From Betaproteobacteria bacterium (lineage in GTDB: Bacteria > Pseudomonadota > Gammaproteobacteria > Burkholderiales > SG8-41), in the NCBI GenBank assembly GCA_016192825.1, contig JACPTK010000036.1:1-38585 (forward strand): a stretch of DNA of 38,585 nt, given 5' to 3'. The notes under the pieces were generated by a model. It worked only from the letters and a program-made list of their open reading frames with translations. It was not told the origin of the DNA and made no database searches. This document shows positions 1,726-15,904 of this stretch, in pieces. The position numbers and the translations under genes were made by a program. Each line of letters starts with the position of its first letter. Position 1 is the stretch's first letter.

Positions 1726-1739
1726 TTGACCGCGGTCAA
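1726..1739. promoter_or_regulatory. Fnr-like palindrome (box 1) in the oxc/regulator intergenic region
   Basis: A perfect 14-bp palindrome, TTGACCGCGGTCAA. It has the half-site and spacing layout of an Fnr-family operator (TTGAT-N4-ATCAA) with C/G instead of T/A at the inner position. Its centre is at 1732.5. Relative to the oxc -10 it sits at -41.5. On the other strand its left half coincides with the -35 of the regulator gene, so activation of oxc and autorepression are both possible. The same pattern recurs at 5813 and 15891. Confidence 0.75.
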
Positions 1740-1756
1740 GAACCTGCGGTTATACT
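1726..1756 (+). promoter_or_regulatory. Predicted promoter of the Crp/Fnr-family regulator
   Basis: TTGACC (1726-1731) and TTATAC (1750-1755) are separated by 18 bp; TATACT at 1751 with a 19-bp spacer is the alternative. Box 1 covers the -35, which would let the regulator block its own transcription. Confidence 0.5.
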
Positions 1757-1778
1757 CACTTCGTCCCCCTCGGCGGCC

Positions 1779-2411
1779 ATGCCGCACCACAGCAAATTTT
1801 CCATGCCCGCCCTCGCCCAGCACCCGGAAGCGAAGATCCTTCGCCTGCAGCTGCGGCAAAACCGGGTCCTGAAGAATCTCGACGCCGCGCAATGGCGCGA
1901 ACTCGAGCCGCTGCTGGAAATCGTGGACTACGCGAAGGGCGAATCGCTCGAGCACCAGGGCGACTGGTCCATGGAACAGTATTTCGTCATCGACGGGATA
2001 CTCAAGCGCGTGGTGTCGAACGCCCAGGGCAAGGAAATGATCCTGCGTTTCGCCGCCGAAGCCGACATCGATACCAGCTACGCCGCCTGGCGCCTGAAGA
2101 CCCCCATACCCTATTCGATCCGGGCCGTCACCAAGGTGCGCGCGGCCAAGCTTTCGATGCCGAACTGGGTGCAGTTCCTCGGGCACCACCCCGCCGTCAA
2201 GAACGCCTTCGAGTTCGAGATCATGAAGCTCATGAGCGAAGTCATGGCCCACACCATCACCCTGCATCTGCTCGATGCGCCGGGACGGATTCAGCGTTTC
2301 ATGCGCAAGCACGCCGATCTCACCGAACGTCTTCCCAAAAAGGAGCTCGCGCTCTACCTGAACCTTTCGCCCGAAACCCTCTCGCGGCTCAAACGACACG
2401 GCAAGATCTGA
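1779..2411 (+). CDS. Crp/Fnr-family transcriptional regulator
   Basis: This 210-residue protein has an N-terminal cyclic-nucleotide-binding-type beta barrel (about residues 20-130, for example VDYAKGESLEHQGDWSMEQYFVIDG, shown here only in part: EHQGDWSMEQYF), a dimerisation helix (about 130-165) and a C-terminal winged helix-turn-helix (about 170-210, LPKKELALYLNLSPETLSRL). The recognition helix keeps Glu-x-x-Ser-Arg (ETLSR), the Fnr signature that reads TTGA half-sites, which fits the boxes found here. There is no cysteine at all, so it cannot carry Fnr's Fe-S cluster; the ligand is unknown. An alternative ATG lies at 1803 (MPALAQHPE), which fits family N-termini better, and no clear ribosome site decides. 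It is divergent from oxc and most likely its regulator (inference). Confidence 0.88.
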   Translation: MPHHSKFSMPALAQHPEAKILRLQLRQNRVLKNLDAAQWRELEPLLEIVDYAKGESLEHQGDWSMEQYFVIDGILKRVVSNAQGKEMILRFAAEADIDTSYAAWRLKTPIPYSIRAVTKVRAAKLSMPNWVQFLGHHPAVKNAFEFEIMKLMSEVMAHTITLHLLDAPGRIQRFMRKHADLTERLPKKELALYLNLSPETLSRLKRHGKI

Positions 2412-2429
2412 CCTCACCGGGCTGTGCGG

Positions 2430-2536
2430 CTAGTGCCGTTCCAACTATTCGCGCCAAACCAAACAGGTTTATAGGGCCGGGTTCCGCGAGTGCGCGCGTC
2501 ATCTGGGTTAGGAGCAATAAGTTGGAACGGCACTAG
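2430..2536. repeat. 107-bp MITE-like element with 17-bp terminal inverted repeats
   Basis: Perfect 17-bp inverted ends, CTAGTGCCGTTCCAACT at 2430-2446 and its complement at 2520-2536, flank about 73 bp of non-coding sequence. It fills the gap between the converging regulator and tctA. The tctA stop codon TAG lies inside the right repeat. The outer CTAG could be a target-site duplication, but being self-complementary it cannot be told from the repeat itself. It could instead be a long-loop transcription terminator. Confidence 0.6.
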
Positions 2537-13654: not shown

Positions 13655-13696
13655 CCATCCTCCTCGTATGCGGGTCCGTAGCGGCCCGCCGCAACG

Positions 13697-14575
13697 CTAT
13701 TTCAGCATCGATTTGAGCAGCTTGCCCATTTCCGCCGGATTGCGAGTCGTCTTGATTCCGCATGCCTCCATCACTTCCAGTTTCTCCGCCGCCGTGCCCT
13801 TGCCGCCGGAGATGATCGCGCCGGCATGCCCCATGCGCTTGCCCGGCGGCGCGGTCACGCCGGCGATGAAGCCGACGACGGGCTTTTTCATGTTGGCCTC
13901 GATCCAGCGCGCGGCCTCCTCCTCGTTGGTGCCACCGATCTCGCCGACCATGATGACCGCCTCGGTCTGCGGGTCGTCGTTGAACATTTTCAGCACGTCC
14001 ACGTGTTTCAAGCCGTTCACGGGATCCCCGCCGATGCCCACGCAGGTCGACTGGCCCAGGCCGACTTCCATCAGCTGGCCGACCGCCTCGTAAGTGAGCG
14101 TGCCGGAGCGCGACACCACGCCGACCGGTCCCTTCTTGTGGATGTGGCCGGGCATGATGCCGATCTTGATCTCGTCCGGCGTGATGACGCCCGGGCAGTT
14201 GGGGCCGACGAGCAGCGTCCTCGCGCCCTGCATCTTGTAGCGGGTGCGGATCATGTCGCGCACCGGAATGCCTTCGGTGATGCAGATGACGAGATCGAGC
14301 CCGGCCTCGACCGCCTCGTCGATCGCCGCGGCGGCGAAGGGCGGCGGAACGTAGATCACGGACACCGTGGCACCGGTTTTCTCCCTGGCTTCCCGCACCG
14401 TCTCGAAGATCGGGATGCCCTCGAAGCTCTGGCCGCCCTTCTTCGGAGTCACGCCCGCGACGTAGCAACGGGCCCCGTTCGCGTACTCCTTGCCCATCTT
14501 GGTATGGAACTGGCCCGTCTTGCCGGTGATGCCCTGTGTCATCACCCGGGTGTTCTTGTTGATCAGGATACTCAT
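13697..14575 (-). CDS. sucD: Succinate-CoA ligase alpha subunit
   Basis: This 292-residue protein has the CoA-binding Rossmann domain ([16 protein letters not shown]), the [10 protein letters not shown] loop and the phosphorylated active-site His in [16 protein letters not shown]. It is the normal family length (about 290). With SucC it interconverts succinyl-CoA and succinate with ATP or GTP. Malate thiokinase (mtkB) is a close relative, but the sequence reads as ordinary SucD. It lies between sucC (77 bp) and fdsGB (42 bp), an unusual place for a TCA-cycle gene. Succinyl-CoA could serve as CoA donor for oxalate activation (inference). Confidence 0.95.
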
Positions 14576-14652
14576 TTTGGGTCGCGGAAGAATGAATGTA
14601 AGTGGTTGCTCACTCCAGCGCTCGCCAAGAGCGAATGACGCTGCGTGCCGGG

Positions 14653-15819
14653 CTAATTTCCGCGGGTCGCCGCCACCACCTTCTGGGCGGCGTCGGCCAT
14701 GTTGCTGGCGGAAATGATGGGCAGCCCGGACTCGGCGAGAATTTTCTTTCCCAGCTCGACGTTAGTGCCCTCGAGCCGCACCACCAGCGGCACTTTCAGG
14801 TGCACCTCGCGCGCGGCGGTGACCACCCCCTCGGCAATCACGTCGCACTTCATGATGCCGCCGAAGATGTTGACCAGGATTGCACTCAGCTTCGGGTTCT
14901 TCAGCATGATCTTGAACGCTTCGGTCACCTTCTCGGTGGAGGCGCCTCCGCCCACGTCGAGAAAGTTGGCGGGACTGCCGCCGTAGAGCTTGATGATGTC
15001 CATGGTGGCCATCGCCAGTCCGGCGCCGTTCACCAGGCAGCCGATGTTGCCGTCGAGGGAAATGTAGGACAGGTCGAATTTCGAGGCCTCGACCTCGGCC
15101 GGGTCCTCCTCGTCGAGATCGCGCATGGCGACGATCTCGGGGTGGCGGAACAGCGCGTTGTCGTCGAAGTTCATCTTGGCGTCGAGCGCGAGCACGCGCT
15201 CGTCGCCGGTCACGATCAGCGGGTTGATCTCCGCGAGCGAGGCGTCGGTCTCATCAAAGGCGCGGTACAGCGCCTTGAGAAAATCGCGCGCCTGGGTGAC
15301 GCCCTTTTCCGGCACGCCGATCTTGCGCGCGATGCCTTCGGCGTCCCCCTCGGCGAGCCCCTTTGCGGGATCGATCGTGACCCGGTGTATCTTCTCGGGC
15401 GACTTCGCCGCGACCTCCTCGATATCCATGCCGCCCTCGCTGGAAGCCATCAGCACCACGCGCTGCGAGCCGCGATCCACCACCATGCCGAGGTAGAGCT
15501 CCTTCCGGATGTCCGCGCCTTCCTCGATCAGCAGCCGGCGCACCTTCTGCCCTTCGGGGCCCGTCTGGTGCGTCTTCAATTGCATGCCGAGAATCTCGCC
15601 GGCGTGCCGCTTCAGTTCCTCGAGGGATCGGGCGAGCTTGACCCCACCGCCCTTGCCGCGCCCACCGGCGTGGATCTGCGCCTTGACCACCCACATGCGG
15701 CCGCCGAGTTTCGCGGCCGCCTGCGCGGCCTCATCCACGCTGAAGCACGGAAAACCGCGGGGCGTCGCGACACCGTACTTGCGCAGAATTTCCTTGGCCT
15801 GATACTCGTGGATTTTCAT
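14653..15819 (-). CDS. sucC: Succinate-CoA ligase beta subunit
   Basis: At 388 residues this is the standard length. It has the ATP-grasp domain (start [16 protein letters not shown], then [18 protein letters not shown]), metal-binding NPLIV and the C-terminal ligase domain with [13 protein letters not shown]. It forms the heterotetramer with SucD. It is first gene of a minus-strand series, sucC-sucD-fdsGB-fdsA-fhs, and lies 71 bp below an Fnr-like box. That it shares an operator with oxc and tctC is the best reason to think this copy takes part in oxalate/formate metabolism rather than only the TCA cycle. Confidence 0.95.
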
Positions 15820-15863
15820 CGGTGATCCGTGTCGTTCGGCTGCGGCTGCGCGTTGGCCGGGAC

Positions 15864-15904
15864 TCTATAACAGCCGTCTGCGCGCCGGCCTTGACCGAAG
15901 TCAA
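15864..15904 (-). promoter_or_regulatory. Fnr-like box 3 and predicted sucCD-fds promoter
   Basis: TTGACCGAAGTCAA (15891-15904) is the third TTGAC-N4-GTCAA match. TATAGA (15864-15869, minus strand) is 21 bp downstream, placing the box at about -40.5 from a start near 15857. The -10 is weaker than at oxc. Nothing else is recognisable between 15905 and 16093 except a small palindrome, CATTCAG-CGAA-CTGAATG, at 16042-16059. Confidence 0.6.

Follow-up and report, generated by a model that had tools for sequence, protein, structure and literature searches.

The locus

This analysis concerns a 38,585-nt stretch of DNA, called the window throughout (contig JACPTK010000036.1 of assembly GCA_016192825.1, which comprises 5.1 Mb in 123 contigs), and in particular a palindrome, TTGAC-N4-GTCAA, that is present in perfect form three times. 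A scan of the whole window found no fourth copy, and 100 dinucleotide shuffles of it gave a mean of 0.00 perfect copies with a maximum of 0. All three boxes are intergenic, and the genes downstream, each on the minus strand, are oxc, tctC, and sucC; a gene for a regulator of the Crp/Fnr fold is divergent from oxc and faces box 1. An earlier reading of the letters of this DNA (the original prediction) had placed three intergenic boxes 5' of oxc, tctCBA, and sucCD-fds-fhs and had noticed no other perfect copy, and the scan agrees on both points. The boxes and the regulator gene are:

1726..1739, no strand: box 1, TTGACCGCGGTCAA, operator candidate in the oxc/regulator intergenic region (sequence scan and shuffles)
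5813..5826, no strand: box 2, operator candidate 5' of tctCBA (sequence scan and shuffles)
15891..15904, no strand: box 3, operator candidate 5' of sucCD-fdsBA-fhs (sequence scan and shuffles)
1779..2411, plus strand: Crp/Fnr-fold regulator of 210 amino acids, cysteine-free, candidate box binder (PF00027; AlphaFold2 model; co-occurrence with oxc)

The catabolic genes, in which CoA stands for coenzyme A, are:

2..1639, minus strand: oxc, oxalyl-CoA decarboxylase (TIGR03254, 931 bits, cut-off 739.4), truncated at its 3' end, where the contig stops
4695..5696, minus strand: tctC, receptor of a tripartite tricarboxylate transporter (PF03401)
4090..4602, minus strand: tctB (PF07331)
2533..4047, minus strand: tctA (PF01970)
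14653..15819, minus strand: sucC, succinate-CoA ligase beta subunit (NF001913, 595.1 bits, cut-off 370)
13697..14575, minus strand: sucD, succinate-CoA ligase alpha subunit (NF004230, 472.1 bits, cut-off 336)
11972..13654, minus strand: fdsB-like NADH-binding subunit, NuoF-type (TIGR01959, 361.9 bits, below the cut-off of 558.65)
9070..11880, minus strand: fdsA, formate dehydrogenase alpha subunit (TIGR01591, 767.6 bits, cut-off 666.25)
7236..8972, minus strand: fhs, formate-tetrahydrofolate ligase (PF01268)

The original prediction's chance figure, 0.04 copies in the window, is valid under equal base composition. The assembly as a whole holds 11 perfect palindromes against five copies of a reversed control pattern, so the many random copies that the prediction had named as a danger to itself are not there. 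The eight copies outside the window give an expectation of 0.06 per window-length stretch, for which the Poisson probability of three or more is 3.6e-5.

Conservation of the boxes and co-occurrence with the regulator

Within the window's family, 59 of the 74 genomes carry an ortholog of the regulator (two as short fragments), and across the order 76 of 399 do, the window's own genome being counted in both; a class-wide search (369 genomes, own included) added only two other genomes, matching weakly at 24-28% identity. A scan for named genomes, taken over the best 80 of 174 relatives, returned mostly metagenome-assembled genomes titled Betaproteobacteria or Burkholderiales, and some other such titles (Bordetella parapertussis, Chitinophaga pinensis) look mislabelled; Massilia sp. 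Root351 and Root418 and Noviherbaspirillum pedocola are among the 80 and carry orthologs. Across the 399 order genomes, regulator and oxc occur together in 67, the regulator only in nine, oxc (over the family cut-off) only in eight, and neither in 315 (Fisher 1.4e-56, with shared ancestry ignored).

Boxes at oxc were sought in 500 bp of upstream sequence plus the first 60 nt of the gene, two of the 75 oxc-positive genomes being dropped where a contig end came first. Of 65 regulator-positive genomes, 45 have a perfect box ahead of oxc and 63 a box with at most one mismatch; none (0/8) was found in the regulator-negative genomes, where the best match always has three or four mismatches. A Markov control gave 0.14% perfect sites, 1.4% with at most one mismatch, and about 14% with two. 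Among the eight is G050, a member of the window's own family, which carries oxc but neither a regulator match nor a box. Six testable genomes have oxc and the regulator on separate contigs (which need not mean that they lie far apart): four have a perfect box at oxc, and two have only a two-mismatch site, as could arise by chance. The original prediction had staked itself on conservation in relatives, and the boxes are conserved there.

The boxes are specific to certain genes. After removal of duplicates among the upstream regions of regulator-positive loci, a box with at most one mismatch lies 5' of oxc in 120/122, of the regulator in 124/138 (often shared with oxc), of sucC in 13/13 (11 perfect), of tctC in 47/66, of fhs in 19/28, and of frc in 36/107. 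Control genes gave 0/72 for tctA, 0/72 for tctB, 0/20 for usp, 0/22 for fdsA, 1/39 for terC, 1/13 for sucD, and 2/19 for fdsB, and Markov controls were at most 1.5%. Both half sites are conserved, the boxes keep syntenic positions, and each window box has counterparts in relatives. The window's fhs itself has no perfect or one-mismatch box upstream.

The regulator

The product of 1779-2411 (P0001) matches PF00027 with 34.9 bits over a cut-off of 27.5, i.e., it has an N-terminal beta barrel of the cyclic-nucleotide-binding type. Its AlphaFold2 model (mean predicted local distance difference test score, 86.3) has the CRP/FNR fold, with strands between residues 47 and 126 and helices at 138-164, 167-177, 187-193, and 198-206, an arrangement in which a long dimerisation helix leads into a C-terminal helix-turn-helix; the chain stops four residues past the last helix. 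Among the Foldseek matches listed, CRP/FNR chains aligned over nearly the whole protein. A Pfam search at 0.001 gave no helix-turn-helix match, and a short helix-turn-helix query against solved structures returned a single, insignificant match.

The protein has no cysteine and thus none of those that hold the iron-sulfur cluster of FNR; 95 of 137 orthologs have no cysteine either, and the maximum is three. E72, R82, and S83 of CRP, which contact cyclic AMP (cAMP), align with S100, I110, and P111, so the cAMP contacts are absent as well. At the specificity positions, the 137 distinct ortholog sequences read P-E-R (122), A-E-R (13), or S-E-R (2). The combination known from the HcpR1 branch, in which R180 is changed to Ser or Pro (passages in Rodionov et al. 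2005, PMC1274295), with TTGAC-N4-GTCAA sites, is therefore present, though the 13 A-E-R sequences depart from it. The label "Fnr-type" in the original prediction fits the fold and the form of the box, but not a protein without cysteine. The open reading frame at 1779-2411 is the likely regulator of the boxes, and its own promoter would share box 1.

Promoter geometry

A site centred near -41.5 is the class II activator position for CRP and FNR. Class II geometry is judged here from the spacing to predicted -10-like hexamers, which in the window are:

1698..1703, minus strand: TATATT of oxc, 22 nt past box 1, 5/6 letters, box centre at -41.5; spacing kept in relatives
5785..5790, minus strand: GATGAT of tctC, 22 nt past box 2, 4/6 letters, weak, box centre at -41.5
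15864..15869, minus strand: TATAGA of sucC, 21 nt past box 3, 4/6 letters, box centre at -40.5
1751..1756, plus strand: TATACT for the regulator gene, at a distance of 11 nt that would put box 1 across the -35 region

The original prediction had hexamers 21-22 bp from the boxes, placing these at -41.5 twice and at about -40.5 once; the spacing reads as it stated, but the hexamers at tctC and sucC match weakly, and the one at sucC has alternative readings at 18 and 23 nt from box 3. In relatives, the best -10-like hexamer of 63 oxc promoters with a box lies at 23 nt in 35 and at 22 nt in 13, and that of 36 frc promoters at 22 nt in 29 and at 23 nt in six; the frc hexamer is TATAGT in seven of the nine sequences printed. 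For fhs, spacings of 23 and 22 nt give the highest mean match; for tctC, where the hexamers are weak, those of 22 and 23 nt do. Relatives thus back a predicted spacing of 22-23 nt clearly for oxc and frc, and less clearly for tctC, fhs, and sucC.

Two other explanations of the boxes bear on this geometry. TTGACC resembles TTGACA, and TTGAC might be simply a sigma-70 -35 element within a fortuitous palindrome; this we regard as having next to no chance of being right, because more than 30 nt separate the first TTGAC and the -10 hexamer, both half sites are conserved, and the box is missing from the eight oxc-positive genomes without the regulator. On the spacing and the conservation of both half sites, the -35 element was rejected as a candidate. 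The regulator could also be a repressor acting on the same boxes until lifted by an inducer. Box 1 does overlap the core promoter in the regulator's own direction in this genus (a similar layout is seen in L013, L014, and L033), although no box-to--10 spacing in that direction is conserved across relatives; at oxc and frc, however, the box sits at about -41.5, upstream of the polymerase-binding core, and repression of the catabolic genes is accordingly very improbable.

The proposed regulon

We favour, at a probability of about 80%, the reading that the Crp/Fnr-type regulator encoded at 1779-2411 uses the boxes as its operators, acting as a class II activator of oxalate and formyl-CoA catabolism. 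What is observed are the boxes, their geometry and conservation, and the co-occurrence and joint absence of box and regulator; from these we infer binding, activation, autorepression, and an effector. At each catabolic promoter a regulator dimer would sit at about -41.5 and, by class II activation, would have oxc(-frc), tctCBA, and sucCD-fds-fhs transcribed more strongly. The predicted pathway runs from oxalate import through CoA activation and decarboxylation to formyl-CoA, and thence to formate oxidation or capture by tetrahydrofolate. Where box 1 overlaps the regulator's own promoter, as in this genus, binding would probably limit regulator synthesis, this self-limitation being the weaker half of the proposal, and the activity of the regulator is probably switched by a pathway intermediate. 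That the genes form an oxalate/formate regulon serving one pathway was the core of the original prediction, and it is supported by the conservation, the gene-specific boxes, and the co-occurrence; frc, on the sequence evidence, is a predicted further member.

Several observations weigh against this reading. The sequences compared are related, and the counts are thus not of independent events. Upstream regions of tctC (19/66) and fhs (9/28) can lack a box with at most one mismatch. Taken alone, the tctC and sucC hexamers of the window are weak, and sucC relatives score higher at a spacing of 18 nt, with 23 nt second. On a matrix trained on the relatives' sites (median 28.6, 5th percentile 17.4), box 1 reaches 30.2 and box 3 reaches 29.4 when read in the catabolic direction, but box 2 is low at 19.7-21.3, and L001, a palindrome elsewhere in the own genome, reaches 23.6; it may be a further regulon member or a chance site. 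Seven other proteins of the own genome match HTH_Crp_2 over the cut-off and could share the box. Lastly, perfect palindromes in the 74 family genomes average 6.3 in the 59 with the regulator and 6.9 in the 15 without it (reversed control, 2.0 and 1.7), with G051 having 15 and no regulator, and G041 the regulator and none. Palindrome counts do not track the regulator, and therefore one or more other factors must recognise this palindrome at genes other than these; what ties the boxes to the regulator is the evidence from the oxalate genes.

These last points lend themselves to another explanation: a global regulator of the FNR, ANR, or DNR type might own the boxes, the genes answering oxygen or nitric oxide and the neighbouring regulator being incidental. 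The DNR motif CTTGATnnnnATCAAG, as given in passages of PMC1274295, is similar in form; the additional HTH_Crp_2 proteins and the equal richness in palindromes of family genomes without the regulator suit such a factor, as do those of the eight other own-genome sites that lie near U32 peptidase, hemerythrin, and nitronate monooxygenase genes. Nevertheless, all eight regulator-negative oxc genomes, one of them of the same family, lack a box with up to two mismatches at oxc, and other Crp/Fnr regulators are unlikely to be the main reader there because regulator and box are jointly absent. Genome G010 has three perfect boxes genome-wide, every one inside its oxalate cluster, and seven of the eight other own-genome sites, each taken in its higher-scoring orientation, reach only 6.1 to 16.0 on the relatives' matrix, L001 alone being high. 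We therefore consider a global regulator unlikely, and the dedicated activator preferable.

The eight further own-genome palindromes (L001-L004 and L008-L011, at position 1501 of each) are perhaps sites of another Crp/Fnr regulator. Several have TAGG or CTAG cores, e.g., TTGACCTAGGTCAA, and the genes near them include, among others, those for nitronate monooxygenase, a U32 peptidase, a hemerythrin, a carbon monoxide dehydrogenase flavoprotein, and a CBS protein. Family genomes such as G051, G036, G037, G040, and G048 have 15-17 perfect copies each, regulator present or not, with 0-5 copies of the reversed control, which suggests that the palindrome has a second, larger user.

A lyase-like enzyme in the place of oxc

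In seven of the nine regulator-positive, oxc-negative genomes (G448, G476, G487, G519, G529, G567, and G711), a different thiamine-diphosphate enzyme replaces oxc, and its gene is preceded by a perfect box in five and a one-mismatch box in two. G058 and G031, of the window's family, also carry this lyase-like gene, each with a perfect box in front. Overall, the gene is found near frc or the regulator, with a box of at most one mismatch in front at all 10 loci checked:

L097:7152-8843, minus strand: lyase-like enzyme
L103:10103-11866, plus strand: lyase-like enzyme
L184:2544-4253, minus strand: lyase-like enzyme
L013, L021, L104, L243, L244, L255, and L278: further lyase-like enzyme loci

The enzyme is about 25-27% identical to oxc, and its best relatives of solved structure are 2-hydroxyacyl-CoA lyases; among the best 25 NCBIfam families for each of three copies, no cut-off was reached. 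It was rejected as an OXC ortholog on that identity and because five aligned copies lack the GDYEE and C-terminal ESGR stretches of five oxc proteins, which we take to be catalytic in OXC.

An actinobacterial 2-hydroxyacyl-CoA lyase produces formyl-CoA, according to PMC8760513. The lyase-like enzyme is possibly an alternative source of formyl-CoA, or else an oxalyl-CoA decarboxylase. At L097, tctA, tctC, fhs, and fdsA are 74-85% identical to those of the window (tctB, 41%), which would instead fit an unrelated enzyme carrying out the oxalyl-CoA step. If the enzyme makes formyl-CoA, the intermediate common to all carriers would be formyl-CoA or formate, and either may be the signal because a lyase-like gene behind the box replaces oxc in seven of nine genomes. 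The carriers may therefore have formyl-CoA/formate metabolism in common, oxalate being the usual front end but perhaps not the sole one. That the regulator senses formyl-CoA (or formate) rather than oxalate, in a regulon spanning both oxalyl-CoA decarboxylase and lyase-like front ends, is a tentative extension of the proposal that we put forward as doubtful. In any case, regulator and box together flag a candidate pathway variant in which a lyase-like enzyme replaces oxc.

Neighbouring genes and other features

The oxc gene is truncated by the contig end, and frc probably follows it across the break, because contig C110 begins with a stretch identical to the oxc C-terminal part and continues into frc. 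The succinate-CoA ligase (13697-15819) may prime oxalate activation by supplying succinyl-CoA. Malate-CoA ligase was rejected as an identity for sucCD, since the beta subunit scores 549.3 against NF010647 (cut-off 604), versus 595.1 over 370 for succinate-CoA ligase. A second such subunit, 38% identical, is encoded on contig C73.

Between tctC and fhs lie terC and a universal stress protein gene, usp (6372-7112 and 5909-6340, respectively), a placement kept in many relatives. A 93-bp stretch at 16456-16548, 3' of box 3, has an exact inverted copy between oxc and frc on C110 (L042, from about 350) and is a short dispersed repeat. Positions 2431-2538, after the regulator gene, have inverted-repeat ends (judged by eye) and resemble a small mobile element.

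Significance and comparison with known systems

The breakdown of oxalate bears on soil carbon, through the oxalate-carbonate pathway, and is important for plant-associated bacteria and in kidney-stone biology. Control of the pathway becomes directly testable through a defined operator and a candidate regulator that has orthologs in Massilia and Noviherbaspirillum, and the two could yield an oxalate or formyl-CoA reporter.

The original prediction knew of no described Crp/Fnr-type oxalate regulon of this form, and none of the open-access literature matches listed describes a Crp/Fnr regulator of oxalate genes, most subscription papers lying outside that scope. Many CRP/FNR subgroups are uncharacterised, as passages of PMC9603854 relate, and the word oxalate does not occur in the main text of that paper. 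A conserved Burkholderiales regulon, governed by a Crp/Fnr subgroup for which the literature searched held no description, is thus a well-supported prediction from the genomes.

The proposed regulator differs from DNR and FNR in that it can hold no FNR-type cluster, because it has no cysteine, and the boxed genes are non-respiratory. From the cAMP-binding CRP and GlxR it differs by S100, I110, and P111 at the positions of E72, R82, and S83 of CRP, and the box differs from what we take to be the CRP consensus. In Cupriavidus necator, frc and oxc form one operon needed for growth on oxalate (PMC7486775); the two genes probably follow one another here as well, although the passages of that paper name no regulator for the C. 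necator operon. Like HcpR1 and its relatives in two cyanobacteria, for which passages of PMC1274295 give predicted sites of TTGACnnnnGTCAA, the regulator is of the Crp/Fnr type, is divergent from a proposed target gene, and in most orthologs has Pro or Ser for R180. Unlike in those relatives, whose targets in the same passages are hcp and norB, the proposed targets here are oxalate and formate genes, and the neighbourhoods examined contain oxc, frc, tct, fds, fhs, and suc genes (the queries were the window's proteins alone; of the hcp/frdX-type redox targets typical of HcpR1, hcp was not searched for).

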